A stretch of 64,000 bases of DNA from Comamonadaceae bacterium ALPHA2B (lineage in GTDB: Bacteria; Pseudomonadota; Gammaproteobacteria; Burkholderiales; Burkholderiaceae_C). Location of the stretch: contig SCOE01000002.1 in assembly GCA_005503065.1 (NCBI GenBank), positions 1 through 64,000 on the forward strand, written 5' to 3'. The position numbers and the translations under genes were made by a program. Of this stretch, positions 12,312 through 62,645 are shown piece by piece (the stretch's first letter is position 1; each line of letters begins with the position of its first letter). Below the pieces are notes generated by a model, which worked only from the letters and a program-made list of their open reading frames with translations, was not told the origin of the DNA and did not search any database.

Positions 12312-12331
12312 GCTTGCCGGCTCTTGTGAAT

Positions 12332-35522: not shown

Positions 35523-35540
35523 ATCGAATCTTTCAAGCGA

Positions 35541-35594
35541 AAAGTGCCTGCAGCGCCCATGCGGCGGGCGCAACCAGCTATCAAAACGATAGCA
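35541..35594 (+). repeat. Two-hairpin palindromic element, copy 7
   Basis: GCGCCC-N7-GGGCGC (35553-35571) is followed by GCTATCAAAACGATAGC (35577-35593). It lies between the clsA start and the clpA terminator. Confidence 0.8.
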
Positions 35595-35628
35595 AAAGAA
35601 AAAGGCCGGCAGCGCGATGCTACCGGCC
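35594..35628 (-). terminator. Rho-independent terminator of clpA
   Basis: A 10-bp stem GGCCGGCAGC / GCTACCGGCC (one mismatch) with a GCGAT loop, followed on the minus strand by a T-rich tail (A-run at 35594-35603). Confidence 0.75.
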
Positions 35629-40423: not shown

Positions 40424-41746
40424 TCATGCAGGCCGCGTCGGACGCGGGATTGTGCCGACCGCCTCGACCGTCAGGTAGGCTTCGCCGTCGGACAGCTCCG
40501 CACGCACCGGCTGCCCCGGCTCCAGCTGCGCAGCACGTGTGATGGGCACGCCTTCGGTGTCGGCCAGCCAGGCATAGCCGCGTTGCAGCACCAGTGCCGG
40601 ATCGAGCAGTTCGAGACGCAGTGCCTCTCGCGCGAGCCGTTCATGGTGCCGCGACAGCATCGCCTCGAATTTGGCATGCCAATCGGCCTGCAGCGCCCGC
40701 TGCATCTGCGCAGAGCGCTCCAATTTCGATAGCGCCGCGTGATGCATGCGCTGGGCCGCGTGGCTGAGCTCGATGCGCTGGCGCGCCACCATGGCGGACG
40801 GGCGCCCCAGGCGCCCCGCCGCAAGGTCCAGGCGCTGGCCCTGTGCGTCGAGGCGACTGCCGATGGCGTCGCGCAAGCGTTCCTCGAGCAATTCCAAGGC
40901 GCCAAGCCACAGCTCGCGCGGCGCGGATGCCAGTTCGGCCGCCGCGGTGGGCGTGGGTGCGCGCACGTCGGCGCAGAAGTCGGCGATGGTGAAGTCCGTC
41001 TCGTGGCCGACGCCAGACATCACCGGCACCGGACTCCGCACGATGGTGCGTGCGAGCGTCTCGTCATTGAAGGCCCAGAGGTCCTCGATGGAACCGCCAC
41101 CGCGCACCAGGAGGATGAGGTCGACCGGTGGCGACAGCGCATACAGCGACTCCAGCGCCTGCGCCAGTTCGGCCGGCGCCTGGGCGCCCTGCACGGCCGC
41201 GGGCACGAGGACGACCGGAATGTGGGGCACGCGGCGACGCAGCGCGGTCACGACGTCGTGAAGTGCCGCCGCCCCGCGAGAGGTGACCAAGCCGATGCGC
41301 CGGGGCATCGTCGGCAGGGGGCGCTTGCGTGCAGGGTCGAACAGGCCTTCCGCCTCCAGTTTGGCCTTGCGCCGCATGAACTGCTCGAAGAGCGCGCCCT
41401 GCCCGGCCCTGCGCAGGCTCTCGACCACCAGCTGCAGATCGCCACGCGGCTCATAGACCGCGAGCCGACCGCGCACCTCGACCTGGTCGCCATCGCGCGG
41501 CGTGAAGTCGAGCAGCGACGCGGCGCGACGGAACATGGCGCAACGCAGCTGTCCTGCGGCGTCCTTGAGCGAGAAGTAGCAATGGCCGCTGCCGGCGCGT
41601 GAGAAACCCGAGATCTCGCCCTGGACCGCCACCGGGTTGAAACGCGCATCGAGCGCATCGGCCACCGCGCGGCACAGCGCACCGACGGCCCAGACGCGCG
41701 TACCCGCGTCGACGCGCGGGCCGCGCGAGTGTTCGAATTCGCTCAT
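40424..41746 (-). CDS. xseA: Exodeoxyribonuclease VII large subunit
   Basis: A 440-residue nuclease subunit. The N-terminal OB fold carries VQGEISGFSRAGSGHCYFSL; the catalytic domain carries RRIGLVTSRGAAALHDVVTA, LILLVRGGGSIEDLWAFNDE and VMSGVGHETDFTIADFCADV, followed by a long helical region. The start at 41746 has GAGGAGGG upstream; 62 upstream codons are not protein-like. The coiled-coil part contains a degenerate palindromic element (40687-40733) encoding ALSKLERSAQ. No xseB lies nearby. Confidence 0.95.
   Translation of the reverse strand: MSEFEHSRGPRVDAGTRVWAVGALCRAVADALDARFNPVAVQGEISGFSRAGSGHCYFSLKDAAGQLRCAMFRRAASLLDFTPRDGDQVEVRGRLAVYEPRGDLQLVVESLRRAGQGALFEQFMRRKAKLEAEGLFDPARKRPLPTMPRRIGLVTSRGAAALHDVVTALRRRVPHIPVVLVPAAVQGAQAPAELAQALESLYALSPPVDLILLVRGGGSIEDLWAFNDETLARTIVRSPVPVMSGVGHETDFTIADFCADVRAPTPTAAAELASAPRELWLGALELLEERLRDAIGSRLDAQGQRLDLAAGRLGRPSAMVARQRIELSHAAQRMHHAALSKLERSAQMQRALQADWHAKFEAMLSRHHERLAREALRLELLDPALVLQRGYAWLADTEGVPITRAAQLEPGQPVRAELSDGEAYLTVEAVGTIPRPTRPA
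40687..40733 (+). repeat. Two-hairpin palindromic element, copy 8 (degenerate, inside xseA)
   Basis: CCTGCAGCGCCCGC...GCGCAGAGCGCT then CCAATTTCGATAGC follow the consensus, but the left AGCTAT arm is replaced by CGCTCC. The reading frame is intact. Confidence 0.55.
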
Positions 41747-42062
41747 CGCGCCGCCCTCCTCGCCGCGCCACGTCGTCCACAAGCGCGCGCGCATCCCCCC
41801 AGGCTGGGTCCGCAAGGGCACAGGCGCCACGACTTGCCGTGCAAGTGCTTGATCTGATTGGAAAAAGTGCTGCTCAAAATTCGGTCGATCTGGCGCAGGC
41901 CACGGCTGGCGTGGCTTTCGCAGAGTTGCCAAGGGGGTTAATCACAAAGTTGTCCACAGAAACTGTGAGCGAAGTCCGACAGTGCGCACCACCGTCTCCG
42001 CTGGGTAGGCTCGGTCATAATCGCCGCCGCATTTGCGTGGCCGCCGGCCCGGAGGGACCCCC
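41747..42062. other. Divergent intergenic region xseA / exbB
   Basis: About 316 bases without a gene. It holds the two divergent promoters. A CATAAT -10-like hexamer (42016-42021) lies 42 bases before the exbB start. A single TTGTCCACA resembles a DnaA box. Confidence 0.35.
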
Positions 42063-42695
42063 TTGTTTTCGATCATAGTTGCTGCAGGCTGGCCGATCTG
42101 GCCGCTGCTTCTCTGCTCGGTGCTGGCGCTGGCGCTGGTCATCGAACGCTTCGTGAGCCTCAAGACCGCCAAGGTGCTGCCGCCCAAGCTGCTGAGCGAG
42201 GCGATGAGCGTGTCGCAGGTGGGCATTCCCGGGCCCGACGTGGTCACCAAGCTGGAGCAGAACTCGGCCCTGGGCCAGGTGCTCGCAGCGGGTTTTCGCG
42301 CCGTCAACGCCAACCCGCGCTGCACCGAGGAGGACGTGCGGGTGGCCATGGAGTCGACCGGCCGCGCCGTGGCCCACAAGCTCGAGCGCTACTTGCCCGC
42401 CCTCGCAACCATCGCCTCCGCCGCCCCGCTGCTGGGCCTGCTGGGCACGGTGATCGGCATGATCGAGATCTTCGGCTCGCAGTCGCCGGCCAGCGGCGCC
42501 GCCGGCACGGGCAACCCGGCGCAGCTCGCGCACGGCATCTCGATCGCGCTGTACAACACCGCCTTCGGCCTGATCGTCGCCATCCCGACGCTGATCTTCT
42601 GGCGCTACTTCCGCTCGCGCGTGGATGAATACCTGCTCAACCTCGAACTGGCGGGCGAACGCTTCGCGCGCCACCTGACCGCCGTGCGCAAGTAG
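42063..42695 (+). CDS. exbB: MotA/TolQ/ExbB proton-channel family protein
   Basis: A 210-residue inner-membrane proton-channel subunit energising outer-membrane transport with its ExbD partner. Three membrane segments: [20 protein letters not shown], then [20 protein letters not shown] and [20 protein letters not shown]. The start is a TTG at 42063 with GGAGG seven bases upstream; it gives the FSII...[10 protein letters not shown]-terminus usual for this family, whereas the ATG at 42033 lies before the ribosome site. It leads the exbBD-lpxK-ycaR-kdsB-adk cluster. Confidence 0.92.
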
Positions 42696-42704
42696 GCCGC
42701 CGCC

Positions 42705-43139
42705 ATGAGTCGCATGCGCTTTCGCCACGGCTCGCAGGAGGAGCCGGAGATCAATCTGATCCCCTTCATCGACGTGCTGCTGGTCGTGCTCATCTTCCTG
42801 ATGCTGTCGACCACCTACAGCAAGTTCACCGAGATGGAAGTGCGCCTGCCGGTGGCCGATGCCGAGGCGCAGCGCGACCGGCCCAAGGAGATCGTGGTGG
42901 CAGTGGGCGCCGACGGCCGCTACGCGGTCAACCGGACCGTTCTGCCAGAGCGCGGCGTCGATGCCGTGACCGCGGCGCTGTCGGCCGCCGCCGGTGGCAA
43001 CAAGGACAACGTGGTCATCATCAGTGCCGACGCCACCGCGGCGCACCAGTCGGTGATCACGGTGATGGAGGCCGCGCGCCGCGCCGGCCTGATGCAGATC
43101 ACCTTCGCCACGCAGACCGCGGCGCAGGCCGCGCGCTGA
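42705..43139 (+). CDS. exbD: ExbD/TolR biopolymer transport protein
   Basis: A 144-residue partner of the proton channel. One membrane segment ([20 protein letters not shown], with the conserved Asp at about 23) is followed by a periplasmic domain ending in [20 protein letters not shown]. It starts nine bases after the exbB stop. Confidence 0.95.
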
Positions 43140-43162
43140 CCCGCGCCGGGCCGCCCACCGCC

Positions 43163-44116
43163 ATGCTGCAGCGCGCATGGTTGCATCGCGGCCTGCTGGC
43201 CCGCCTGCTGTGGCCGCTCTCTCTTGTCTACGGCAGCATCGCCGCCGTGCGGCGGATGGCCTACCGCCGCGGCTGGAAGGCGTCGCACAGCGTCGGCGTG
43301 CCGGTGGTCGTGGTGGGCAACGTCATGACCGGCGGCGCCGGCAAGACGCCCGTGGTGATGGCGGTGGTCCAGCACCTGCAGACGCGCGGCCTGGCGGTGG
43401 GCGTGGTCTCGCGCGGCTACGGCCGCCGCACGCAGGACGGCCGCGAGGTGCATGCCGACAGCGACCCACGCGACGTCGGCGACGAGCCGCTGCTGGTGCA
43501 TCGCACGACCGGCGCGCCGGTGGTGGTGGACCGCGACCGGGTGGCCGCCGCGCGCCGCCTGCTGGCCGCCCATCCCGAAGTGAGCCTGATCGTGAGCGAC
43601 GACGGGCTGCAGCACCTGGCGCTGCGGCGCGACGTCGAGATCTGCGTGTTCGACGACCGGGGCGCGGGCAATGGTTGGTTGCTGCCCGCGGGGCCCTTGC
43701 GCGAATCCTGGCCCCGGAGCTGCGACATCGTGCTGCACACGGGCGATCACCCGGCCTTCGCCGGCTTCACGGCGCGGCGCGCGCTCGCCGACCATGCCCT
43801 CGGGCAGGACGGCGGCCACGTGCCACTGGCCGAACTCGCACGCCGACCGAACGTGATCGCGCTGGCCGGCATCGCGAACCCCGAGCGCTTCTTCGACATG
43901 CTTCGCGCCCGCGGCATCGCTCCCGCGCAGTGCATCGCCCTGCCCGATCACTATGATTTCGATAGCTGGTCGCGCCCGCCCGGTGGACCTTACAGCCTGA
44001 TCTGCACCGAAAAGGATGCCGCGAAGCTATGGCGCGTGGCGCCCGATGCGCTGGCCGTGCCACTGGTGTTCGCGCCCGAGCCGGCGTTCTTCGCCGCCCT
44101 GGACGCACGACTATGA
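43163..44116 (+). CDS. lpxK: Tetraacyldisaccharide 4'-kinase
   Basis: A 317-residue membrane-associated kinase adding the 4'-phosphate in lipid A synthesis. The P-loop [17 protein letters not shown] (about 48-64) and [10 protein letters not shown], plus [20 protein letters not shown] and LPAGPLRE, are diagnostic. The C-terminal region [10 protein letters not shown] is also typical. A palindromic element in reverse orientation (43948-43990) lies in frame as [11 protein letters not shown] just before it. Confidence 0.95.
43948..43990 (-). repeat. Two-hairpin palindromic element, copy 9 (inside lpxK)
   Basis: In reverse orientation: GGGCGGGCGCGACCAGCTAT then CGAAATCATAG. It is in frame within lpxK and encodes [13 protein letters not shown]. 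Confidence 0.7.
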
Positions 44117-44123
44117 TCCCCCG

Positions 44124-44306
44124 ATGGACACCAAGCTCCTTGAACTTCTGGTCTGCCCCGTCACCAAGGGGCCGTTGAACTGGAATCCCGAAAAGCAGGA
44201 ACTGTCCTCGCGCAGCGCGCGGCTCGCCTATCCGGTGCGCGATGGCATCCCCATCCTGCTGGAGACCGAGGCACGCACACTGACCGACGACGAACTGGGA
44301 CTCTGA
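44124..44306 (+). CDS. ycaR: Trm112/YcaR family protein
   Basis: A 60-residue protein of the Trm112-like family. It has [20 protein letters not shown], a single Cys where zinc-binding relatives have more, and [17 protein letters not shown]. It always sits between lpxK and kdsB in this group. A chaperone-like or LPS-related role is suggested by context only. Confidence 0.9.
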
Positions 44307-44310
44307 TCGC

Positions 44311-45856
<1,546 letters not shown>

Positions 45857-45881
45857 ATCCGTCCCCCGGGCAGCAGAAAAA

Positions 45882-45906
45882 GCCACCGCACGCGGTGGCT
45901 TTTTTC
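45882..45906 (+). terminator. Rho-independent terminator after adk
   Basis: GCCACCG-CACG-CGGTGGC followed by TTTTTTT. The A-run on the other side means it could also serve the minus-strand asparaginase gene. Confidence 0.9.
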
Positions 45907-45930
45907 CGCCCGACGCGCACGCCACGGGGC

Positions 45931-46911
45931 TCAGCCCTGCATCAGCGACAGCATCAATGCGATGCGCGCCTTGACCGGGCTCAACGCGCCCGCATCGGGC
46001 AGCGTGTGACGCGCCCCCGGGACGATCTGCCCGACAGCACAGCGCGTCGCACGCACCACCCGGATGCCCGCAGCCTGCGCGCGCAGCAGCGCCTGCTCCA
46101 GCGAGGCATGCACAGTGCCGTTGCCGGTGGCGGCGACCACCAGTCCCTGGACCGCATCCGCGGCGCCCGCTTCGCGCTCGCGCACCAGCAGATCGACCAG
46201 CGCCGCACCCGCGCCAGCGTGGCTCGTCACGATCTCCACGCGCGGCCAGGCCACAGCCGATGCTATCTTTTTCATAGCTGCCTGCGCCTGCCCCTCGGGC
46301 GCTGCAGGCCAGTTGCGTGCCTGGCGCAGTTGCCCTTCCTCCATGTAGCCGATGGGCCCCATGTCCCCTGAGGAGAAGGCATCGATCCGGTAGGGGTGCA
46401 CCTTCTGGACGTCGAGCGCGCCATGGACCGTGCCCGCGCACACGACGGTGACGCCCCGTACACCGGGCGTCGCAGCCAAAACGACGGCATCACGGATGTT
46501 CTGCGGACCATCCGGCACCAGCGCCGAAGCCGGCCGCATGGCGCAGGTGAGCACGACGGGTTTGAAGGCCGCCAGCACTTCATGGAGGAAGAAGGCGGTC
46601 TCCTCGAGCGTGTCGGTGCCATGCGTGATGACCACGCCGGTGACCTCGTCCTGCGCCAGCCAGTGCGCGCAGCGCGCCGCGAGCACCTGCCACACGCCCA
46701 CATCCATGTCCTTGCTGTCGATGTTGGCCACCTGCTCGGCAGACAGCGCGACACCGGGGACCTCGAGCCCGTCGATCAGGTCGGACACGCCCACCTCGCC
46801 CGCGGTGTAACCCACGTTGTCGCCAGCGGCCGGGGCACGGCCCGCGATCGTCCCGCCCGTTCCCAGCACGACCACATGGGCAGCCTGGCCCTTCGTTTCG
46901 CCTGTCGTCAT
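45931..46911 (-). CDS. Asparaginase
   Basis: A 326-residue L-asparaginase hydrolysing asparagine to aspartate and ammonia. The two catalytic Thr motifs are present: VVVLGTGGTIAGRAP (Thr near 20) and GVVITHGTDTLEETAFFLHE (Thr-Asp near 100). VLTCAMRPAS and SSGDMGPIGY are typical. No signal peptide is seen, so it is cytoplasmic. A palindromic element in reverse orientation (46260-46313) is translated in frame as AAMKKIASAV. It diverges from lexA; the two promoters are close. Confidence 0.93.
   Translation of the reverse strand: MTTGETKGQAAHVVVLGTGGTIAGRAPAAGDNVGYTAGEVGVSDLIDGLEVPGVALSAEQVANIDSKDMDVGVWQVLAARCAHWLAQDEVTGVVITHGTDTLEETAFFLHEVLAAFKPVVLTCAMRPASALVPDGPQNIRDAVVLAATPGVRGVTVVCAGTVHGALDVQKVHPYRIDAFSSGDMGPIGYMEEGQLRQARNWPAAPEGQAQAAMKKIASAVAWPRVEIVTSHAGAGAALVDLLVREREAGAADAVQGLVVAATGNGTVHASLEQALLRAQAAGIRVVRATRCAVGQIVPGARHTLPDAGALSPVKARIALMLSLMQG
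46260..46313 (-). repeat. Two-hairpin palindromic element, copy 10 (inside asparaginase gene)
   Basis: GCTATCTTTTTCATAGC (46262-46278) is followed by the GC-rich hairpin GCGCC...GGCGC (46284-46302) and TGCAGGCC. It is in reverse orientation relative to copies 1-7. Confidence 0.8.
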
Positions 46912-46918
46912 CGTCTGC

Positions 46919-46947
46919 TTGCCAATCGAATGGAAACTGGTTAAAAA
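46919..46947 (+). promoter_or_regulatory. lexA promoter
   Basis: TTGCCA (46919-46924) and TAAAAA (46942-46947) lie 17 bases apart; the -10 is overlapped by the first SOS box. Confidence 0.5.
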
Positions 46948-46971
46948 TACAGTTACTGGATGAACACCCAG
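46937..46971 (+). promoter_or_regulatory. Two tandem LexA (SOS) boxes upstream of lexA
   Basis: CTGG-TTAAAAAT-ACAG (46937-46952) and CTGG-ATGAACAC-CCAG (46956-46971) both fit CTG-N10-CAG. Their centres are 19 bp apart, and the first covers the -10 region. This is the arrangement expected for LexA autorepression. Confidence 0.75.
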
Positions 46972-47034
46972 TGGATGAACCCGGCAGCGGCCTCAGGCCG
47001 CCGGATTTCGGTCACACAGCAAGGAGCCGTTCGC

Positions 47035-47736
47035 ATGCTCAACCTGCCCGCTTCGCCTTTCGCCGCGAAGCTTACCGCCCGCCAGCAGCAGATCCTCGAC
47101 CTCATCCAGGCCGCCATCGCGCGCACCGGTGCGCCGCCCACACGGGCCGAAATCGCTGCCGAACTGGGCTTCAAGTCGGCCAACGCCGCCGAGGAGCACC
47201 TGCAGGCCCTGGCGCGCAAGGGCGTCATCGAACTCGTGAGCGGCACCTCGCGCGGCATCCGTCTGCGCGGGGACGCGCTGCGCTCCCTGCAGGAATCTCG
47301 CCATCGCGACGGCGGCCAGCTTTCGCTGGCGTTGCCGGGCATCGCACAGCTGGCGCTGCCGCTCATCGGCCGGGTGGCGGCCGGTTCGCCCATCCTGGCG
47401 CAGGAGCATGTGGACCAGACCTACTACGTCGAGAACACGCTGTTCCAGCGCAAGCCCGACTACCTGTTGAAGGTGCGCGGCATGTCCATGCGCGACGCCG
47501 GCATCATGGACGGCGACCTGCTCGCAGTGCAGGCCACGAAAGAAGCGCGCAACGGCCAGATCATCGTCGCCCGACTGGGCGAGGAGGTGACCGTCAAGCG
47601 CCTCAAGCGCAACAAGGACGTGGTCGAGCTCCATGCCGAGAACCCTGACTACCCCACCATCGTCGTCGAACCCGGCGAACCCTTCGAGATCGAGGGCCTG
47701 GCCGTCGGGCTCATCCGCAACACGATGCTGATGTAA
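47035..47736 (+). CDS. lexA: LexA repressor
   Basis: A 233-residue SOS repressor. The winged helix (1-75) is [20 protein letters not shown] and [20 protein letters not shown]. The self-cleavage site Ala-Gly lies in IGRVAAGSP, the catalytic Ser in [15 protein letters not shown], and the Lys in [11 protein letters not shown]. The ATG at 47035 is preceded by AAGGAG. The linker (about 85-110) is longer than in E. coli (202 residues). Confidence 0.97.
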
Positions 47737-47852
47737 CGCCATACAACAGCCGTATCAGGTGGCGGGCGTATGGCAGCACAGCCATCACCCTGCTGCGGCT
47801 GTCCTTTCGCCGAATCCTGCCTGTGTTCCACCCCTTGATTTCAGGAGTTCAC

Positions 47853-48185
47853 ATGGGAATCGCTCTGCTCGCAATCGCTGACCTCTTCACCCCACTTCAT
47901 ACGCTGGCCACCCGCTGGATGCCGGCGCGCAGCGCGCGGCGCGCCGCCTCTGCAGGCCTGCGCTATGTGGCCGTCCGGCCACGCTCCGGGGCAGGCGCCC
48001 TTCCTGCGCCGGTACGGCCACAGCGTGTGGTGCGCGTCGTCCGCATCGTGGAGCGCGGCCAGCTGGCGCACGCCGAAGGCCGTGTCGTGATCTCGGGTCG
48101 AATGGCCGATGTATGCGCCGAACTGGATCGCCTGGCAGCGATCGAGGCCGCCGCCGCAACCGCTGCGCCCAAGCAATTGCACTGA
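47853..48185 (+). CDS. Small hypothetical protein downstream of lexA
   Basis: A 110-residue protein I do not recognise. AGGAG precedes the ATG at 47853. The N-terminus (MGIALLAIADLFTPLHTLAT) is hydrophobic, and the middle is basic (ARSARRAASAGLRYVAVRPR). The C-terminal region RVVRIVERGQLAHAEGRVVI followed by SGRMADVCAELDRLAA looks folded. Lying 116 bases after lexA, it may be part of the SOS response, by position only. Confidence 0.6.
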   Translation: MGIALLAIADLFTPLHTLATRWMPARSARRAASAGLRYVAVRPRSGAGALPAPVRPQRVVRVVRIVERGQLAHAEGRVVISGRMADVCAELDRLAAIEAAAATAAPKQLH

Positions 48186-48306
48186 GCGCGGCGCACGCAC
48201 GGCCGAGGGCGCTACGCCTGCCGTGAGCACCCCATGGCACAGCAACAGGCTGTGTCATGCACTCCACAGGCGAGGCGCCGGCGAGCCCAAGGCACAATGG
48301 GCAGCC

Positions 48307-49314
48307 ATGAACATTGTGATCTTGGACGACTACCAGGACGCCGTGCGCAAGCTGCGCTGCGCCGCCAAGCTCGACGCCTACGCGGCAAAGGTCTACACCA
48401 ACACCGTCAAGGGCATCGGGCAGCTCTCGGTCCGGCTCAAGGATGCCGATGTGATCGTGCTCATCCGCGAGCGCACGCAGATCACGCGTCAACTCGTCGA
48501 GAAACTCCCCAAGCTCAAGCTGATTTCGCAAACGGGCCGCGCCGGCTCGCATATCGATATCAACGCCTGCACCGAGTTCGGCGTGGCCGTGGCCGAAGGA
48601 AGCGGCTCGCCGCTCGCACCTGCCGAGCTGACCTGGGCACTGATCATGGCCGCCATGCGGCGCCTGCCCCAGTACATCAGCAATCTCAAGCACGGCGCGT
48701 GGCAGCAATCGGGGCTCAAGTCCGCGTCGATGCCGCCCAACTTCGGACTCGGCTCGGTGCTCAAGGGCAAGACACTGGGCATCTGGGGTTACGGCCGCAT
48801 CGGACAGCTCGTGGCCCGCTATGGGCAGGCCTTCGGCATGCAGGTGGTGATCTGGGGCCGCGAAGGCAGTTGCAGCAAGGCGCGCTCCGATGGCTTCCAG
48901 GTGGCGGCGAGCCGCGAGGCCCTGTTCGAGCAGGCCGACGTGCTGTCGGTACACCTGCGGCTGAACGAAGAGACGCGCGGCTTGGTGCGCCTCGATGACT
49001 TGATGCGAATGAAACCCACCGCCCTGTTCGTGAACACCTCGCGTGCCGAACTGGTCGAAGCCGACGCACTGCTGGCGGCGCTCAATCGCGGCCGGCCAGG
49101 CCTGGCCGCGATCGATGTGTTCGAGAGCGAGCCGCCGCTGCAGGGCCATGCCCTGCTGCGTCTGGAGAACTGCATCTGCACGCCCCACATCGGCTACGTC
49201 GAGCAGGAAAGCTACGAGATGTACTTCGGACAAGCCTTCGACAATGTCGTGAGCTTCATCCGGGGCAACCCCACCAACATCGTCAACCCGGGCGCGCTCC
49301 AGGTTCGCCGCTGA
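48307..49314 (+). CDS. D-2-hydroxyacid dehydrogenase family protein
   Basis: A 335-residue NAD(P)-dependent oxidoreductase. The nucleotide-binding loop is LGIWGYGRIGQLVARYG. Catalytic residues are in FVNTSRAELVEADAL (Arg), AAIDVFESEPP (Glu) and CTPHIGYVEQ (His). The N-terminus MNIVILDDYQDAVRKLRCAA is typical of the phosphoglycerate-dehydrogenase-like branch. The substrate is unknown. No serine-biosynthesis genes or ACT domain are present. Confidence 0.9.
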   Translation: MNIVILDDYQDAVRKLRCAAKLDAYAAKVYTNTVKGIGQLSVRLKDADVIVLIRERTQITRQLVEKLPKLKLISQTGRAGSHIDINACTEFGVAVAEGSGSPLAPAELTWALIMAAMRRLPQYISNLKHGAWQQSGLKSASMPPNFGLGSVLKGKTLGIWGYGRIGQLVARYGQAFGMQVVIWGREGSCSKARSDGFQVAASREALFEQADVLSVHLRLNEETRGLVRLDDLMRMKPTALFVNTSRAELVEADALLAALNRGRPGLAAIDVFESEPPLQGHALLRLENCICTPHIGYVEQESYEMYFGQAFDNVVSFIRGNPTNIVNPGALQVRR

Positions 49315-49344
49315 GGCCTCGCAGGCCGCAGCGGTGGTGCAGCC

Positions 49345-51654: not shown

Positions 51655-51701
51655 TTTGACACCAACATCAACGAAGTACATCTTTGGGACACATTTAAAA
51701 G
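51655..51701. promoter_or_regulatory. 47-bp shared divergent promoter region
   Basis: A very short AT-richer gap between the FimV-like and acyl-CoA dehydrogenase start codons. GACACATTT occurs twice as a direct repeat (51648-51656 and 51688-51696). The two promoters must overlap each other or the coding sequences. Confidence 0.4.
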
Positions 51702-53222: not shown

Positions 53223-53262
53223 CGATCGCCGCGCGCGGCGCACGCGAGACAGAGACAAACCG

Positions 53263-54042
53263 ATGACCGCAGAACTCAAGAGCACCAGTGAAGGCCGCAC
53301 CATGGTGCTGACGCTGTCCAACCCGAGCCAGCGCAACGCGCTTGGCCCGGAGATCTACGCCGCCGGCATCGAGGCCCTGGGGGGCGCCGAGAGCAACCCG
53401 GACGTGCGCTGCGTGGTCATCGTGGGCGAAGGCGCATGGTTCTGCGCCGGCGGCTCGCTGCAGCGGCTGCAGGCCAACCGCGAGCGCGACCCGCAGGTGC
53501 AGGCCGACAGCATCGAGGGCCTGCACAGCTGGATCGATGCGATCCGGACCTTTCCCAAGCCGGTCATCGCCGCGGTCGAAGGCGCTGCCGCGGGCGCGGG
53601 CTTTTCGCTCGCCATGGCCTGCGACTTCGTCGTGGCGGCGCGCGATGCGGTCTTCGCCGCGTCGTACAGCAACGTGGCCCTGTCGCCCGACGGTGGGCTG
53701 AGCTGGCATCTCGCGCGGGCGCTGCCGCGCCAGCTCGCCAGCGAGTGGCTCATGAAGGGCGAGCGCATCGCGGCGACGCGCCTGCACGAACTGGGACTGG
53801 TCAACGAGCTGACCGATGCGGGCCACGCGCTGAGCAACGCGATGGCCCTCGCACGGGGCCTGGTCGAACGCGCACCGAACGCCCTCGCCAGCATCAAGGA
53901 ACTCATCAGCGAAGCCCGCGGTGCCGGCCTGAACACGCACCTCGCGAGCGAGCGCGACCACTTCGTGCGCAATCTGCACCACGCCAATGCCGGCATCGGC
54001 ATCGCCGCCTTCCTCGCCAAGAGCAAGCCGCAGTACGAATAG
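53263..54042 (+). CDS. Enoyl-CoA hydratase/isomerase family protein
   Basis: A 259-residue crotonase. The oxyanion hole is in AWFCAGGSLQ and AAVEGAAAGAGFSLAMACDF. Instead of the catalytic Glu of classical hydratases, the loop reads LSPDGGLSWHLARALP. Isomerase or other CoA chemistry is thus possible. It follows the dehydrogenase gene by 40 bases. Confidence 0.88.
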   Translation: MTAELKSTSEGRTMVLTLSNPSQRNALGPEIYAAGIEALGGAESNPDVRCVVIVGEGAWFCAGGSLQRLQANRERDPQVQADSIEGLHSWIDAIRTFPKPVIAAVEGAAAGAGFSLAMACDFVVAARDAVFAASYSNVALSPDGGLSWHLARALPRQLASEWLMKGERIAATRLHELGLVNELTDAGHALSNAMALARGLVERAPNALASIKELISEARGAGLNTHLASERDHFVRNLHHANAGIGIAAFLAKSKPQYE

Positions 54043-54127
54043 GCCACGCGGCGGCCTTGCAGCACGAACGCCGCTTGGTCGCTCGTGCGACAACCCCTTC
54101 CCATCCAGTCGCGGAAAAGACAGACCA

Positions 54128-54847
54128 ATGGACGACCCCATTCTTACCATCGAAGAAAGAGAAGCGATCAACGGTGGTCGCTGGTTCACATCACTTTCAC
54201 CCTCGCTGCGGCACGACATCCTCCGATGCGCTTTCGTCAGACGCTACAAGGACGGCGAACTCATCGCCACACGCGGCGATCCACCCGATTCATGGATCGC
54301 CTGTGCGAAGGGGGCGGTGCGCGTGAGTTCGACGGCCGTGTCGGGCAAGCAGGTCACGCTGACCTACGTGGAGCCCGGCATCTGGTTCGGCGACGTGGCC
54401 ATGTTCGACGGGGACCGTCGCACGCACGATGCCTATGCGCACGGCGACACCACCATCCTGTGCGTGGCGCGCGCCGACTTCCAGAAGATCCTGTCCTCGC
54501 ACGTCGAGCTGTACGAGGCATTGATGCGCCTGCAGGCGCGGCGCATCCGCACGCTCTTCGGCCTGGTGGAAGACCTCAACACCCTGCCCTTGCGCGCACG
54601 CCTGGCCAAGCAGCTCGTGCACCTGGTGCGCAGTTATGGCGTGCCCAACCTCGCCGATGGCAGCCAGACGCGCATTGGTCTGCAACTGGCGCAGGAAGAG
54701 CTGGCGCAGTTGCTCGGCGCCTCGCGCCAGCGCGTCAACCAGGAACTCAAGTCGATGGAGCGCGAGGGTGCGATCCGCATCGAGCCGGCAGGCCTGGTGG
54801 TGCTGGATCGGGACGCGCTCACGCGCATCTCGCAGGCCGACGACTGA
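54128..54847 (+). CDS. Crp/Fnr-family transcriptional regulator
   Basis: A 239-residue regulator. The cyclic-nucleotide-binding-like domain (about 20-140: KDGELIATRGDPPDSWIACA, EPGIWFGDVAMFDGDRRTHD) is followed by a helix-turn-helix (QEELAQLLGASRQRVNQELK, about 185-205). No FNR-type Cys cluster is seen, so it is not an Fe-S oxygen sensor. It sits inside the acyl-CoA gene cluster and may regulate it. The start is the ATG at 54128, with no strong ribosome site. Confidence 0.9.
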   Translation: MDDPILTIEEREAINGGRWFTSLSPSLRHDILRCAFVRRYKDGELIATRGDPPDSWIACAKGAVRVSSTAVSGKQVTLTYVEPGIWFGDVAMFDGDRRTHDAYAHGDTTILCVARADFQKILSSHVELYEALMRLQARRIRTLFGLVEDLNTLPLRARLAKQLVHLVRSYGVPNLADGSQTRIGLQLAQEELAQLLGASRQRVNQELKSMEREGAIRIEPAGLVVLDRDALTRISQADD

Positions 54848-54886
54848 GGCGCGCGGTACGCTGAACGAACAACAGGCTTCCGAGAC

Positions 54887-55993
54887 ATGACGCAGGATTT
54901 CAGCAATTTCATCGGCACGCGAGCCGTCTCCTCACAGCACGCCTTCGACACCGAGGCGCTGTCTGCCTGGCTGAGCACGCATCTCGATGGCTTCCAGGGA
55001 CCGCTGACGGTCGAGATGTTCAAGGGCGGGCAGTCGAACCCCACCTACAAGCTCGTCACCCCGCAGCGCAGCTACGTGATGCGCGCCAAGCCCGGCCCGG
55101 TCGCCAAGCTGCTGCCTTCCGCGCATGCGGTCGAGCGCGAGTACAAGGTCATGAAGGGTCTGGCCGGCACCGATGTGCCCGTGCCGGCCATGTACTGCCT
55201 GTGCGAGGACGAATCGGTCATCGGCCGCGCCTTCTATGTCATGGAGTGCATGGAAGGCCGCGTGCTTTGGGACCAGTCGCTGCCCGGCTTCAGCAACGCG
55301 GAACGCGCCGCGTACTACGACGAGATGAACCGCGTCATCGCGGCCCTGCACACCGTCGATTTCGCCGCGCGCGGCCTGGCCGACTACGGCAAGCCCGGCA
55401 ACTACTTCGAGCGGCAGATCGGCCGCTGGAGCAAGCAGTACAAGGCCTCGGCCGATGGGGCCGGCGAGCTGTCGCAGCCCATCGAGGAGATGGAGCGCCT
55501 GATCGACTGGCTGCCCGCGCACATGCCCGCCAGCGCGCGCGACGAGAGCAAGGTCTCGATCGTGCACGGCGACTATCGCCTGGACAACGTGATGTTCCAC
55601 GCCACCGAGCCGCGCATCATTGCCGTGCTCGACTGGGAGCTGTCGACGCTGGGCCATCCACTGGCCGACTTCAGCTACCACTGCATGTCGTGGCACATGC
55701 CGCCCACGACGGGCCGCGGCATCGGCGGCGTCGACGTCGCCGCGCTGGGCATCCCGACCGAGTCCGAGTACATCCGCCGCTACTGCGAGCGCACCCGCAT
55801 CAGCACGCCCGAGGCGCTCGCGCCCGATTGGAACTTCTACCAGGCCTACAACCTGTTCCGCATGGCCGCGATCCTGCAGGGGATTGCCAAGCGGGTCGAG
55901 GCCGGAACCGCATCGAGCGAACAGGCCGTGGCCTCCGCCCGCGGCGCACGACCCATGGCCGCGATGGCCTGGCAGTTCGCGCAGAAGGCGTAA
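54887..55993 (+). CDS. Phosphotransferase family protein (ACAD10/APH-like)
   Basis: A 368-residue kinase-like protein. The Brenner motif is VSIVHGDYRLDNVMFHATEP, followed by VLDWELSTLGHPLADFSYHC. The N-lobe includes FKGGQSNPTYKLVTPQRSYV. Such proteins are usually encoded beside acyl-CoA dehydrogenases, as here, and probably phosphorylate 4-hydroxyacyl-CoA intermediates (from knowledge of ACAD10/11; not tested here). It has APH fold motifs throughout. Confidence 0.9.
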   Translation: MTQDFSNFIGTRAVSSQHAFDTEALSAWLSTHLDGFQGPLTVEMFKGGQSNPTYKLVTPQRSYVMRAKPGPVAKLLPSAHAVEREYKVMKGLAGTDVPVPAMYCLCEDESVIGRAFYVMECMEGRVLWDQSLPGFSNAERAAYYDEMNRVIAALHTVDFAARGLADYGKPGNYFERQIGRWSKQYKASADGAGELSQPIEEMERLIDWLPAHMPASARDESKVSIVHGDYRLDNVMFHATEPRIIAVLDWELSTLGHPLADFSYHCMSWHMPPTTGRGIGGVDVAALGIPTESEYIRRYCERTRISTPEALAPDWNFYQAYNLFRMAAILQGIAKRVEAGTASSEQAVASARGARPMAAMAWQFAQKA

Positions 55994-56032
55994 GCCCCTT
56001 CCCCACCTCCCTACCCCACCCCAGGAGACACG

Positions 56033-57304
<1,272 letters not shown>

Positions 57305-57316
57305 GCCGCCCCTCCG

Positions 57317-57370
57317 GATTGCTATCTTTTTTATAGCAATCGCCGCCTGCCCTGCAAGGGCCGGCGGCTT
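57317..57370 (-). repeat. Two-hairpin palindromic element, copy 11, joined to a terminator
   Basis: GCTATCTTTTTTATAGC (57321-57337) precedes the GC-rich hairpin in reverse orientation; that hairpin runs straight into a T-run and forms the terminator of the acyl-CoA dehydrogenase gene. Confidence 0.85.
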
Positions 57371-57375
57371 TTTTT
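57342..57375 (+). terminator. Rho-independent terminator after the acyl-CoA dehydrogenase gene
   Basis: GCCGCCTGCCCT-GCAA-GGGCCGGCGGC followed by TTTTTTT. The stem is the GC-rich half of a palindromic element. Confidence 0.85.
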
Positions 57376-57396
57376 CTCATGAAACGGTCCGACCGT

Positions 57397-58557
57397 TCAG
57401 GCCGGGAGCAGCTTGGAACGGATGAAGCGCGCACCACGTTGCAGGCGGCGCAGGCGATCGCCCAGCCTCACGGGCCGCTCGTACGCGCCGAGCCGCGGCT
57501 GGTAGCGCAATGCCCAGGCCTGGCGCATGAAGGGGGCATTGGCGCGCACCGGCGTGCCGTCGCCGCGTTCGCCGGCCAGGTAGTTGCCGTTGTAAGAGCG
57601 CAGCATCAGCTGCCCGTCGCGCAGCGGCACGCTGTGGAACAGACCGGCGGGACCCTGCCCGTCGGCCAGCCTCACCACATCGTCCTGCCGCGCATCCACG
57701 GTGAGGTAACGCCCAGAGGGGCTGCGCAACGCGATGCGGCCGAGCCCATGGTCTTCCAGTCGCAGCTGCAAGCCCGCTGATTCCGTGCCGCGCACCCAGC
57801 GGAGCGCTTCGCCGGGCGCGTCCGCGCCCGCGAGCCAGGCGCCGCCCGGACTGCGCAGCGCGAAGCTGTCGTCCAGGGCCGCGGTCAGCCGGGGGTCGTC
57901 GATCTCGTCCAGGCCAATGAACCGGTAGCCCATGCCCTGCAGCCGCGGCACCAGCGCGCGCGTGAGCTCGAGCGTCCGGCTCCCTTGCGCCACCACATCC
58001 ATGTCGGCGACGCTGTCGTGCATGACCACGATGCCACCGCCATGGCGCTCGATCTCCGCCAAGTACTGCTGCTCGGCCTCCTGCACCGACTGGCCCAGCC
58101 GCCAGCAGTGGCAATCGATACCCGGCACTTCCCAGTACACCGGCCCCACATGCCCAAGTGAACTGCGAAGGTCGATGTTGAGTTCGTTGGCCACCTCGGG
58201 CGACCACTTGCCGTAGGTCGCGCGCAGGAAGACCCGGCCGTCACGGCTGTAGCGGCGGATCAGCCCGTCCGTGCGGATGATCTGCTCGCGCACATCGCCC
58301 CCAGCCGCCACGTAGTAGGGCATGTCGGGATGGTCGTAGGTGTGGTTGCCGATGATGTGCCCGGCCGCATGCAGGCCGGCAAGCACTTCGGGGCACTGCT
58401 CGGCGTACTTGCCGACCACGAAGAATGTGGCGCGCACTCCCCGCTCGGCAAGGAAGGCGCCGATGGCGCTGCTGTCCGGACCTGGACCGTCGTCGTAGGT
58501 CAGGCACAGCGTGCGTTCGGGAAGGCGCAGGCCGGCGATGCTGCCGCGCTCTAGCAT
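57397..58557 (-). CDS. Polysaccharide deacetylase with C-terminal trefoil-like domain
   Basis: A 386-residue protein. The NodB domain (1 to about 215) has motif 1 TLCLTYDDGPGPDS (Asp-Asp), motif 2 HIIGNHTYDHPDMPYY (metal His pair), motif 3 FLRATYGKWSPEVANE, and MHDSVADMDVV later. Residues about 225-386 form a beta-rich domain with repeated aromatic/glycine blocks (FALRSPGGAWLAG, RIALRSPSGRYLTV, QLMLRSYNGNYLAG), like a fascin/ricin beta-trefoil and probably binding sugar. No signal peptide is visible. Its start overlaps the end of the glycosyltransferase gene by seven bases, so both probably act on the same polysaccharide. Confidence 0.88.
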   Translation of the reverse strand: MLERGSIAGLRLPERTLCLTYDDGPGPDSSAIGAFLAERGVRATFFVVGKYAEQCPEVLAGLHAAGHIIGNHTYDHPDMPYYVAAGGDVREQIIRTDGLIRRYSRDGRVFLRATYGKWSPEVANELNIDLRSSLGHVGPVYWEVPGIDCHCWRLGQSVQEAEQQYLAEIERHGGGIVVMHDSVADMDVVAQGSRTLELTRALVPRLQGMGYRFIGLDEIDDPRLTAALDDSFALRSPGGAWLAGADAPGEALRWVRGTESAGLQLRLEDHGLGRIALRSPSGRYLTVDARQDDVVRLADGQGPAGLFHSVPLRDGQLMLRSYNGNYLAGERGDGTPVRANAPFMRQAWALRYQPRLGAYERPVRLGDRLRRLQRGARFIRSKLLPA

Positions 58558-59585
58558 GGCTGGGTGGCCTGCCGGCTTGTCGGCTTGCTTAGGCCGAGGA
58601 CGCGCTCGAACACCCCGAGATACTGGCCGGCCACGTGGAGGCGCCTGTGGCGGTCGAGGAAAAGGCCCCGTCCCGCCGTGCTGGGTTCGCCTTCGTCGAG
58701 GGCACGCTCCATCAGGCGATGCAACCCGATGAGGTCTCCCATCGCGAATGTATCGGCATGACCGGCAACGGCCTCGGGCAGGCCGCCCGCTTCGGCCACG
58801 ATCATGCGGCAGCCGCAGGCCAGCCCCTCGAGGGCCACGATGCCGAAGCCTTCGGGCCCCCTGGAAGGGACGACCATCGTGCGGTGCCGGTTGAGGCAGC
58901 GCGCGAGGGCCTCGCCCTGCAGGTAGCCGCTGAACTGGATGCGGTCCTGCAGCCTCAGGATTTCCACCTTGGCGCGCAGTCGGTCGTACTCCGGGCCCTC
59001 GCCGACCACCGTGAGCGTGAATGGCCGCTGGATCAATCGGCACGCATCGATCAGCATGTCGCAGCCCTTCTGCGGCACCAGTCGGCCGACAAAGACGAAG
59101 TCGCGATCGCGTTCTTCGTCCGCATACACCCGGAAGGTCGAGTCGTCGTAGCAGTTGTAGATGACGTCCGAATCGGCTCCCACCACGCGCGAGACGCTGG
59201 CACTGACCGCCACATTGCGGGTGGCGTGGCGCACCATTCGGCGCTTCAGGCGCGTCTTCAGCCCGTTCCCATGGGTGAGATGGAAATCGTTGTGCGATAC
59301 CACCCATTTCTTGAACGGGTTGAAGGCGAACAGCCAGGCCCCCTTGAGGGTGATGTTCGGCATGTACATCACGTCGGCCCAGGCGAACAGCTGCAGCTGC
59401 TTCCTGCGATGACTCGAATGCACGATCTCGATGCGGTGCAGAGAAGGCGCATCCCCCTGGGGCTGCTCGGTCACCACCTTGACGTCGTGGCCTGCACGGA
59501 CGAACTCGGCCGCCAGCATGCGGGTGTGGTTCTCAATGCCGCCGATGCCCGGATAGAACACCGAGCTGTAGATCAGAATCTTCAC
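58551..59585 (-). CDS. Glycosyltransferase family 4 protein
   Basis: A 344-residue GT-B glycosyltransferase. The N-lobe has YSSVFYPGIGGIENHTRMLA; the C-lobe has VFVGRLVPQKGCDMLIDACR and the nucleotide-sugar motif PSRGPEGFGIVALEGLACGC (E-x7-E type). The start is a GTG at 59585 with AAGGAG nine bases upstream; an ATG at 59627 is possible. The donor and acceptor cannot be read. Co-transcribed with the deacetylase. Confidence 0.85.
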   Translation of the reverse strand: MKILIYSSVFYPGIGGIENHTRMLAAEFVRAGHDVKVVTEQPQGDAPSLHRIEIVHSSHRRKQLQLFAWADVMYMPNITLKGAWLFAFNPFKKWVVSHNDFHLTHGNGLKTRLKRRMVRHATRNVAVSASVSRVVGADSDVIYNCYDDSTFRVYADEERDRDFVFVGRLVPQKGCDMLIDACRLIQRPFTLTVVGEGPEYDRLRAKVEILRLQDRIQFSGYLQGEALARCLNRHRTMVVPSRGPEGFGIVALEGLACGCRMIVAEAGGLPEAVAGHADTFAMGDLIGLHRLMERALDEGEPSTAGRGLFLDRHRRLHVAGQYLGVFERVLGLSKPTSRQATQPC

Positions 59586-59880
59586 AACCGGCGGCTCCTT
59601 GAACTCTGGTTGAAGGCGGGAAAACACCCAGGCTTGCGGTCGTTGCGACCGGCACTCCCTGTGGCGAAGTGTAAAGAATCGTCAGGTTTTGTTCAGGAAA
59701 CAACAGTCGTCCGAGTGCGCAAGCAGGACTTTAGTATTACGTAGTCCAAAGGATGCTAGGGACTTTTTTCTTATCACCAGACCCGCTTCCGGGCGTTCTG
59801 GCGAGGAGCAGCGCTGCTCCGGGGCTCTCTCTTGATAGCAAACCGCATTGGCTGGCCGGGCGTTCGAAGGCCTTGTTCGC
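59586..59880. promoter_or_regulatory. Leader/operator region upstream of the glycosyltransferase operon
   Basis: AT-richer than its surroundings, with two palindromes: TTGTT-CAGGA-AACAA (59689-59703) and GGACT-N12-AGTCC (59726-59747). No gene is seen. Confidence 0.4.
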
Positions 59881-60360
59881 TCACAGCGGCTTCTGGAGGA
59901 AGAGCGCCTTTCCGAACGCAGGGTCGAGCTGGTAGCCGGCGAAACCCTCGCGCTCGTATGCTTGCAAAGCGGGCCGGTTCCCCGAGAGCACCTCGAGCGT
60001 GAGCTTGCAAGCGCCGCGGCGGCGTGCCTCTTCTTCCACGCGTACCAGCATGTGGTGCGCCACGCGCTGGCCGCGATGGCTGGCCTTGACGACCACGTCG
60101 TGCACGTTGACCAGCGGCCGGCATGCGAAAGTCGAGAAGCCCTCCATGCAGTTGATCAGGCCGACCGCCTGCTCGCCGTCGACGGCCAGCACGCTGAAGA
60201 CCTGCGGCCGGTCGGCGAGCGCCTGGGGCAGCGCGGCCTGCACCGTGGGTGCCAACGGCTGGCCTCCGCCGGCAGGATCGCGAGCGTAGTGGTCGAGCAG
60301 CTCGACCAACCAGCGTGCATGGACAGGGTTGTGATAGTCGGCCAGGCAGATATCGATCAC
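59881..60360 (-). CDS. GNAT family N-acetyltransferase
   Basis: A 159-residue acetyltransferase. The acetyl-CoA loop is VKASHRGQRVAHHMLVRVEE, followed by NRPALQAYEREGFAGYQLDP. The N-terminus VIDICLADYHNPVHARWLVE is typical of a Burkholderiales subgroup. The start is a GTG at 60360 with GGAG seven bases upstream; a GTG at 60399, adjacent to the glmM stop, gives 13 extra residues. Substrate unknown. It may be translated from the glmM transcript. Confidence 0.85.
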   Translation of the reverse strand: MIDICLADYHNPVHARWLVELLDHYARDPAGGGQPLAPTVQAALPQALADRPQVFSVLAVDGEQAVGLINCMEGFSTFACRPLVNVHDVVVKASHRGQRVAHHMLVRVEEEARRRGACKLTLEVLSGNRPALQAYEREGFAGYQLDPAFGKALFLQKPL

Positions 60361-60399
60361 GCGGGCTCCAACGAGCGATGCGGCAACATCGCGCCGCAC

Positions 60400-61752
60400 T
60401 CAGGAGGCGGCGGCCACTGTCGCCGGCTGGACCGTGGCGGCGATGCGCCGCGCACAGGCCTCGGCCTGCGCGGCCTCGCGCGCCTCGACCATGACACGCA
60501 GCAGCGGCTCGGTGCCGCTCGCTCGGATCAGCACTCGCCCGGCATCGCCGAGCTCGGCCTCGGCTTGCGCCGTCGCCTGGGCCATCGCGGCGTTGCTCTT
60601 CCAGTCCTGGCCGTCGGCCAGGCGCACATTGATGAGCACCTGGGGAAAGAGTCGCACGCCACCCAGCAGGTCGGCCACGCTCTTGCCACTGCGCACCACG
60701 GCCTGGAGGACCTGCAGCGCGCTCACGAGGCCATCGCCGGTGGTATGGCGGTCGAGCGCCAGCAGGTGCCCCGAGCCTTCGCCGCCGAGCAGCCAGCCGC
60801 GCCGGTCGAGTTCCTCCAGCACGTAGCGGTCGCCGACCTTGGCACGCACGAACTCGACCCCGGCGCGGCGGAAGGCCATCTCCACAGCCTTGTTGGTCAT
60901 CTGGGTCCCCACCACGCCCACCGGCTTCTCGCCCCGAGCAATGCGATCGGCGACCATGAGGAAAAGCAGTTCGTCGCCGTTGAACAGACGCCCGCTTGCA
61001 TCGACCAGCTGCAGCCGGTCCGCGTCACCGTCGAGCGCGATGCCGTAGTCGGCGCCTTGCGCCTTCACGGCCTCGATCAACGCCTCGGGATGGGTCGCGC
61101 CCACGCCCTTGTTGATGTTGAGGCCATCGGGCTGCACGCCGATGCTGGTCACGTCGGCCCCGAGCTCGTGGAAGACGTTGGGCGCCACCTGGTAGGCCGC
61201 GCCATGGGCCGCATCGACCACGAGCTTGAGGCCGCGCAGGCTCAGGTCGTTGGGAAAGGTGCTCTTGCAGAACTCGATGTAGCGCCCGGCGGCATCGTCC
61301 AGGCGCCGCGCGCGGCCGAGGGCCGCCGAGTCGACCCACAGCGGCGGCTCGGCCAGCGCGGCCTCCACAGCCTCCTCCCATTCGTCGCTGAGCTTGGTGC
61401 CCTGTGCGCTGAAGAACTTGATGCCGTTGTCGGGGTAGGCGTTGTGGCTGGCGCTGATCACCACGCCAAGGCTTGCACGCTGCGCTCGCGTCAGGTACGC
61501 GACGCCGGGCGTGGGCAGCGGACCCAGCAGCACGACGTTGACACCGGCGGAGTTGAAGCCCGACTCCAGGGCGGATTCGAGCATGTAGCCCGAGATGCGC
61601 GTGTCCTTGCCGATCAGTACCGTCGGGCGTGCTTCGCTGCGCTTGAGCACCCGACCCACCGCATGCGCCAGGCGCAGCACGAAATCCGGGGTGATGGGGG
61701 GCTTGCCCACCGTGCCGCGGATGCCGTCGGTGCCGAAATACTGTCTTGTCAT
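60400..61752 (-). CDS. glmM: Phosphoglucosamine mutase
   Basis: A 450-residue enzyme making glucosamine-1-phosphate for UDP-GlcNAc. The active Ser is in [14 protein letters not shown] (Ser102, as in E. coli). The metal loop is DGDADRLQL, and the sugar-binding loop is GGEGSGHLL. It overlaps folP by four bases (ATGA at 61749-61752), the conserved ftsH-folP-glmM order. Confidence 0.97.
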
Positions 61753-62645
61753 GGTTGTTGCCTTTCCTGTTCTTGTTGTGGGCTGCCTCCAGCCGCCGAA
61801 TCCTCGGCGGCCTGCCAGACGGCCAGGGCCTGGACGGTCTGGCGCACATCATGCACCCTCACGATGCGCGCGCCCCGCTCCACCGCCATCAGCGCGGCGG
61901 CCACGCTGGGGACCAGGCGCTCTGCCGGCGTTTCGATGCCCGTGACGACACCGAGCGAGGACTTTCTCGACCAGCCGGCCAGCAAGGGGAAGCCGGCGGC
62001 CATCAGCTCGCCCTGCCGCGAGAGCAAGGCGAAATTCTGCGCGACCGTCTTGCCGAAGCCGATGCCGGGATCGAGCACGATGCGGGCCGAATCGACCCCG
62101 AGGGCGCATGCAGCCTGCGCCGAGCGCTTCAAAAAAGATAGCACCTGGGGCAGGACGTCGCCCTGCATCGGCGCCACCTGCATCGTCTGCGGATCGCGGT
62201 GCATGTGCATCAGGCACACCCCGCAGGACGGATGGGCGGCCACCACCTCGGCGGCACCCGGACGGCGCAGCGCCCAGATGTCGTTGACGATGTCCGCGCC
62301 CAGTTCGAGCACGGCGCGCATCACTTCCGGCTTGTAGGTGTCCACGGAGATGGGGACATCGAGCCGAACGGCCTCGCGCACCACTGGGAGCACCCGCGCC
62401 AGTTCCTGGTCCAGCGGCACCGCCGGGCTGCCCGGCCGCGTCGACTCGCCCCCGATGTCGAGGATGTCGGCGCCCTCGGCCAGCAGCGCTTCGCAGTGCC
62501 GAAGGGCTGTGGACGTGGACCCGTGGGCGCCGCCGTCGGAGAAGGAGTCGGGCGTGACGTTGACGATGCCCATCACTTGCGGACGCCGCAGGTCGATCCG
62601 GTGCCGTGCGGTCTTCCATACAGCGGCCTGCCGGGAGGCGGTCAT
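61749..62645 (-). CDS. folP: Dihydropteroate synthase
   Basis: A 298-residue folate enzyme, the sulfonamide target. Motifs are [55 protein letters not shown] and [10 protein letters not shown]. It contains a degenerate palindromic element (62104-62143) encoding [10 protein letters not shown] in a helical region. The ATG at 62645 follows ftsH by about 67 bases. Confidence 0.95.
62104..62143 (+). repeat. Two-hairpin palindromic element, copy 12 (degenerate, inside folP)
   Basis: GCGCATGCAGCCTGCGCCGA then GCGCTTCAAAAAAGATAGCA. The left palindrome arm is altered to CGCTTC, as in xseA; the frame is intact. Confidence 0.5.

Follow-up and report, generated by a model that had tools for sequence, protein, structure and literature searches.

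How does a dispersed repeat come to lie in frame within conserved genes, and does its presence there mean that it was inserted? This question is raised by a 64,000-nucleotide stretch of DNA from Comamonadaceae bacterium ALPHA2B (contig SCOE01000002.1, positions 1 to 64,000; referred to here as the window), in which copies of a 65-nt element lie between genes and also within xseA, lpxK, an asparaginase gene and folP. An initial annotation had held that these four proteins must tolerate the element as an insert. Comparison of the genome to which the window belongs (G000; 6.0 Mb in 91 contigs) with related genomes revealed a two-hairpin repeat, old and positionally stable within its clade, with in-frame element-like DNA in conserved genes, essential ones among them. 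Within those genes the repeat occupies existing codons, which is not the appearance expected of a simple parasitic insert.

Results

Alignment of 97 distinct copies from G000 defined an element of 65 nt with sharp borders, TTTCAAGCC...GATAGCAA, and a consensus of the same length, TTTCAAGCCAAATCGGCCTGCAGCGCCCG(C/T)CCGGCGGGCGCGAGCAGCTATCGA(A/T)TCGATAGCAA. When folded, the consensus gives two main hairpins, GCGCCCG/CGGGCGC and GCTATCGA/TCGATAGC (-33.4 kcal/mol, z -4.1), and its ends are not inverted repeats; the stem pairs are nearly invariant among the copies, so that covariation was uninformative. A covariance model, R1, was built from nine window copies, which included those of asparaginase and 57319..57383 but not those of xseA, lpxK and folP. 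With 150 candidates scored per genome, R1 gave at least 150 matches in G000, every one above 50 bits, and the pattern GCTAT-N6-GATAGC occurred there 156 + 155 times (palindromic sites being counted on both strands), compared with 0 for a reversed control. Copies in the window were scored with a weight matrix built from 92 copies outside it. Only 12 matches in the 64 kb exceeded -10 bits, namely the four in-gene copies and eight that lie within intergenic DNA or at its edge (Table 1).

All peptides that had been read from the four in-gene copies were found in their places, and the copies scored far above the controls. The best score in 481,871 bases from element-free or nearly free relatives (partly overlapping loci, including G004 with one copy and G005 with four) was -12.9 bits, and a Gumbel fit gave 9e-6 to 1.4e-3 expected matches of the in-gene copies' strengths per 64 kb. 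With R1, xseA (27.8 bits) and lpxK (26.3) exceeded the best of the 150 candidates scored per genome in about 35 Mb from six element-free genomes (25.0), whereas folP (21.4) was only level with the seventh best match in this DNA. Chance was rejected on the control DNA for xseA, lpxK and asparaginase, and less strongly for folP; all four copies are genuine, folP the least securely. The xseA, lpxK and folP proteins matched NCBIfam models above cut-off, and the asparaginase matched its subfamily below cut-off. An RNA hairpin function of the coding copies was rejected, as the xseA, lpxK and folP copies fold no better than shuffles (z 0.45, 0.37 and 0.09, respectively), although the asparaginase copy does fold (z -2.64).

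The initial annotation had expected an insertion of 10-18 residues at the repeat borders in an alignment with orthologues, and had named orthologues outside the family with the same length and similar residues as the contrary outcome. The alignments, made with the fetched loci (up to 30 per gene), gave this contrary outcome, and the tolerated insert was not upheld for xseA, lpxK, asparaginase or folP. FolP had zero indels across the 65 nt in 29/29 aligned orthologues (30 loci including G000, of 39 genomes matched) and was ungapped at the element site against its two best PDB relatives. Block length in XseA was equal in 22/22 family orthologues, with local gaps placed by pairwise tblastn in five family members (G003, G015, G016, G019 and G021), and seven orthologues from other families had 19-21 residues more in the block. 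LpxK was net 1-2 residues shorter in 12 element-poor family genomes and of the same length in 5/7 other-family genomes; a PDB relative was shorter by 2 residues at the site. The asparaginase loop between flanking tryptophan positions, counted by eye, had 20 residues here compared with 17-21 in element-free relatives and 24 in G020 (4 copies), and two PDB chains had 3 residues fewer. In a further in-gene case, prpE (locus L260, 40.7 bits), 25/25 family orthologues were free of indels and 2/3 outgroups carried one extra codon, in a set that leaves out one match from G036 and a second from G010, both likely paralogues. The lengths of lpxK and asparaginase change by about 3 residues at most, far below the 22 codons of an insertion. 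We judge from these sequence comparisons that folP, xseA, lpxK and asparaginase very probably contain no element-sized insertion.

The idea of an insert held for dapE, outside the window (locus L003, 51.2 bits), and failed for the four window genes. The DapE loop from NLWA to LVFAGHTDVV has 35 residues in G000, 13 in G004 and 9 in G001, G006 and G012, and the best PDB relative has 8, which makes this a real in-frame gain of about 22 codons; the dapE copy in G013 is almost perfect (90.5 bits). Strong in-gene copies were also found in a MacB-like transporter (NCBIfam match below cut-off) and, in apparent linkers or termini, in PbpC, PcrA-like, AddA-like and PrmC proteins (named by eye), and an RsgA-like gene has a 35.5-bit copy over its C-terminal region. 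At L239:949-1013, a 63.6-bit copy makes up codons 12-33 of a called gene, and its reading, IALKTIAAHALLAGASGLFGLN, looks like a signal peptide.

The consensus is open in four of its six frames. Reverse-complement frame 0, which reads LLSNR*LLAPAGRALQADLA*, is the sole frame with the left arm as an in-frame TAG, and it is the frame of both the xseA and folP copies. These copies share an altered left arm and an LS-x-L pattern, for which the initial annotation had offered common descent of a coding variant or adaptation to coding. Both features arise because the normal arm is a TAG stop in the shared frame. Adaptation is therefore supported in the plain sense that the left arm was forced to change; common descent is not supported, as the FolP proteins of G010 and G014 read EQAAQ at the site and not KRSAQ. 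Frame +1 is used by asparaginase, dapE and the AddA-like gene, frame -1 by lpxK, frame -2 by prpE, PbpC, the PcrA-like gene and L239, and frame +0 by the RsgA-like gene, MacB and PrmC. Frame +2, with a stop in the right arm, is used by none of the in-gene copies listed.

At an E value of 1e-6, R1 matched 19/60 genomes, G000 included. The bearing genomes comprised the G000 clade (G002, G008, G010, G013 and G014) and other genera of the family. Polaromonas, Rhodoferax, Curvibacter and Ramlibacter are among the named relatives at the asparaginase locus, which would make this family the Comamonadaceae. Among other members of the genus of G000, G004 had one copy, G005 had four, and none were found in G001, G003, G006, G007, G009, G011 and G012. 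Element-poor lineages were nested within bearing ones in a seven-protein tree, in which several nodes were weak (support 43 to 70); the simplest reading is an ancestral element with later losses.

When the lpxK, folP, xseA and prpE sites were scored in relatives, gapped columns counted as zero, a rule that benefits element-poor genomes at LpxK. Outside the clade, bearing genomes scored at the lpxK site 16.6 (G017), 14.8 (G016), 9.8 (G018), -6.0 (G023) and -14.0 bits (G020, 4 copies), and 12 family genomes with 0-4 copies scored -34.8 to -83.7 (-39.6 in G005, 4 copies). For the asparaginase site the scores were 52.8 (Rhodoferax), 39.8 (Polaromonas), 33.4 (G028), 3.9 (G017) and -9.5 (G016), with no element signal in G018, G023, G024, G026, G029 and G034. 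Scores at the folP site were -16.8 in G017 and G018 and -38.1 in G016, compared with -71.6 to -108.9 in element-poor family genomes; those at the xseA site were 16.1 in G017 and 1.1 in G018, and those at the prpE site 4.2 in G028, -9.5 in G033 and -10.5 in G016. A second place in xseA, some 420 nt from the first, also bears an element-like stretch in G016, G018 and G020 (9.8, 12.4 and -2.0 bits; L161, L150 and L152). G017 and G028 each have a consensus of their own (20 copies per genome). Over columns 20-42 of the coding copies, the own-lineage matrix fitted best in 10/10 sequences of the G000 clade, a count biased by the picking of sites with the G000 matrix, in 4/4 of G017 and in 2/3 of G028; over all 65 columns it fitted best in 3/4 of G017 and 3/3 of G028.

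Orthologous copies were present for 11/12 window copies in G002, 9/12 in G010 and, above -10 bits, 5/12 in G008; G005 and G012 had none above -10 bits across about 74 kb apiece. The seven intergenic copies alignable to relatives revealed no clean 65-nt empty site. Five element-lacking comparisons, at four sites, gave length differences of -69, +46, -39, -4 and -42 nt; the candidate empty site at 12324 in G010 (-69 nt) was really a deletion beginning inside the element. Divergence from G002 was 54/454 in intergenic copies, 39/395 in their flanks and 1429/8189 at 4-fold sites, and purifying selection on the copies was rejected since they diverge no less than the flanking noncoding DNA. Intergenic copies had 8 changes toward the consensus compared with 2.5 expected from the neutral spectrum (P = 0.0004, mean score change). 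Changes away from the consensus numbered 20 compared with 26.7 expected in intergenic copies, and 17 compared with 16.2 in coding copies.

A Y1_Tnp transposase was found in 32/36 genomes, bearing and free alike, but not in G034 despite its 69 element matches; it was rejected as the mover, as it does not track the element and has it alongside only in some genomes. At L376:1462-2344, where the neighbourhood was read, a Y1-type transposase gene lies upstream of gltB and is followed by GGGTCTGACCCC-like palindromic DNA and then by a degenerate element copy. The lpxK gene was rejected as the source of the repeat: it has a full 65-nt match, yet several genes match equally.

Positions relative to genes were determined in G000 for 98 entries (of the 150 matches scored, the top 30 plus 68 from the remaining 120; entry L022 scored its neighbour). 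The entries were 68 intergenic, 23 at a gene end and 7 within a called gene, or 68/22/7 for the 97 distinct copies, counts that are approximate as the gene calls came from our own codon-usage script. By orientation of the neighbouring genes, the 68 intergenic copies were 24 convergent, 39 codirectional and 5 divergent. In copies overlapping gene ends (23/98 entries, e.g. L013, L216 and window 20974-21038), the arms may provide stop codons. Element positions 27 and 31 showed two linked loop types among G000 copies, C..T and G..G (mutual information 0.5), which suggests subfamilies.

Table 1. Copies of the element in the window, scored with the weight matrix
Feature	Position	Strand	Score (bits)	Remarks
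Intergenic copy	933..997	+	87.6	Surroundings not alignable to fetched relatives
Copy at convergent gene ends	3970..4034	+	64.3	Orthologous copy in G002, G010
Intergenic copy	12324..12388	+	84.2	Common to G002; G010 deletion begins within copy
Intergenic copy	16115..16179	+	66.9	Common to G002, G010, G008
Intergenic copy	20535..20599	+	68.8	
Copy overlapping gene end	20974..21038	+	77.9	
Intergenic copy	35531..35595	+	87.9	In G002, G010, G008; not in G005 (spacer 42 nt shorter)
Degenerate xseA copy (gene on -)	40671..40735	+	29.8	Net length unchanged
Degenerate lpxK copy (gene on +)	43948..44012	-	43.0	
Asparaginase gene copy (same strand as gene)	46260..46324	-	49.9	Second hairpin intact
Diverged copy between convergent genes	57319..57383	-	16.5	R1 53.6 (R1 trained on it)
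Degenerate folP copy (gene on -)	62080..62144	+	17.9	No indel, 29/29 aligned orthologues

Within the copy at 57319..57383 there is a GC hairpin that has a run of T on the + strand. A half-copy, TCTTGATAGCAA, lies at 59830-59841, where the remainder of the element is not present. An imperfect inverted repeat at 21985-22145 (55-nt arms, 80% complementary, 51 nt apart) has no match to the element. Rfam gave no match in the window at gathering score and none at E 0.5 in three element loci, and plasmid and phage collections gave no match to the one copy used as query.

Discussion

The results favour an in-place origin of the repeat over insertion in the conserved genes. The best explanation as a whole, which we put close to an even chance, is replacement, filtering by protein function and then decay. 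Short tracts from dispersed copies would have replaced repeat-like gene segments through ectopic gene conversion or template switching, a mechanism that we hold tentatively, at somewhat below an even chance. Protein function would retain only stop-free outcomes of near equal length in conserved domains, and in flexible loops less eroded copies would survive, together with at least one real gain (about 22 codons in dapE). The coding copies would then decay by ordinary mutation and be gone where a lineage had lost the repeat.

Several observations weigh against this explanation. No replacement event was caught and no mobility enzyme was identified. The folP site of G023 (-74.2 bits) falls within the element-free range, and in other bearing genomes the xseA site (G016, -77.0; G023, -100.5) or the prpE site (G017, G018, G023, G024, G029 and G034, all at -57.9 or below) is missing. 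The fit of copies to their own lineage could be simple co-descent or concerted change. The dapE loop of G005 has 29 residues without a recognisable element (-50.5 bits), so that this loop can lengthen or hold its length without the element. In the clade, coding copies had 3 changes toward the consensus compared with 3.0 expected (P = 0.07, mean score change), and their 4-fold sites diverge faster than the remaining 4-fold sites (16/48 against G002, 17/44 and 18/39, compared with 0.175, 0.220 and 0.221). With changes at the neutral expectation and fast 4-fold divergence, the coding copies resemble products of an earlier process that are now in decay.

The main rival is point-mutation drive, in which some process in the cell would favour alleles that come nearer to the motif and so make the repeat grow in place, in genes and intergenic DNA alike, with genus dialects as uptake sequences do; we consider it distinctly unlikely. 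It would account for in-place matches without indels, for variants specific to a genus to which the coding copies tend to conform, for positions that are stable between species (G002 has the orthologous copy for 11/12) and for the toward-consensus excess in intergenic copies, and uptake signal sequences are said in PMC7811141 to evolve by point mutation and not as inserted elements. The density is low for such a process (12 per 64 kb here and fewer in other scanned stretches), dapE has gained length, and the present decay of the coding copies resembles that of neutral DNA. At 65 nt the element is also much longer than known uptake motifs, and we know of no precedent for an uptake-sequence-like process of this size. 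Replacement is tentatively preferred over drive because dapE is a block gain and no present drive is seen in the coding copies. The joint claim that a 65-nt motif spreads family-wide in conserved genes with no insertion, through either driven substitution or short tracts of replacement, and that coding copies follow genus dialects in this uptake-sequence-like spread, is somewhat unlikely.

A mobile palindromic insert like that of Rickettsia, entering in frame with other residues lost later to restore length, is improbable: exact or near-exact restoration would be needed in FolP, PrpE, XseA, LpxK and asparaginase, the seven alignable intergenic copies show no clean 65-nt empty site, and the consensus does not end in inverted repeats. 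The true gain in dapE would fit such an insert, as would the location of the strongest in-gene copies in apparent linkers or termini (MacB, PbpC, PcrA-like, AddA-like and PrmC). Improbable, too, is coincidence, by which conserved motifs (YDF.S, AM..IAG, RY..Y and LS.L) in AT-ending codons would resemble the repeat. Conserved LpxK residues do lie beneath the match, as presumably do conserved residues of the RsgA family; synonymous shuffles of the window genes reach 27.5 bits, presumably since the site peptides are kept, and seven matches in the 35 Mb of control DNA equal folP in strength. Coincidence is countered by ungapped 65-nt matches that beat all of the 482 kb of controls, with xseA and lpxK beating the 35 Mb as well, and by the matches largely tracking the presence of the repeat in a genome.

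If repeats are able to overwrite codons of essential genes at constant length, a share of the evolution of protein sequences in this family would be imposed by a DNA process, and a repeat found in frame should be called an insertion only after its length has been compared among orthologues. Bearing and free lineages occur side by side, which makes the hypothesis testable.

Comparison with known systems

A section of PMC5217627 lists two potential novel, single-genome motifs and does not join them into one element or compare them among orthologues. ATAGCT(N)22CAAAAG, from Polaromonas naphthalenivorans, has 125 copies, of which 101 are intergenic and 18 lie in genes; GCTTAT(N)5AAGCG, from Acidovorax ebreus, has 114, with 44 convergent, 4 divergent and 59 co-oriented. 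The spacing of both motif pairs fits the 65-nt element, and from spacing and sequence we infer that both are probably parts of it. Parts of the motif were thus probably already in this 2017 list, which made no orthologue comparison; searches of open-licence papers turned up no work that sets in-gene copies against orthologues.

The element resembles repetitive extragenic palindromic (REP) sequences and bacterial interspersed mosaic elements (BIME) with their REP-associated tyrosine transposases (RAYT) in being a mostly intergenic hairpin repeat (features described in part in PMC2817692), and differs in having coding copies and in that the resident Y1 transposase does not track it. Unlike a miniature inverted-repeat transposable element (MITE), it has no terminal inverted repeats and no clean empty sites in the relatives compared. 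DNA uptake sequences, the uptake signal sequences (USS) of Pasteurellaceae and DNA uptake sequences (DUS) of Neisseriaceae, form lineage dialects and are biased to convergent gene ends. Such sequences evolve in place and are present in coding sequence, according to PMC7811141; for the element, folP, prpE and xseA show no indel and dapE shows a gain in length. The element differs from uptake sequences in its much greater length, its two hairpins, its low density, the lack of a known link to uptake and the gain in dapE.

The Rickettsia palindromic elements (RPE) are interspersed repeats with open frames, found between genes and in frame in conserved genes, and the 105-146 bp elements are fused into genes as inserts, as PMC2229807 describes. 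Our element is likewise an interspersed palindromic repeat with open frames and with both intergenic and in-frame gene copies. It is, however, 65 nt long with two separate hairpins and not 105-146 bp with terminal inverted repeats, and it makes no element-sized addition in folP, xseA, lpxK, asparaginase or prpE, whereas dapE does gain residues.

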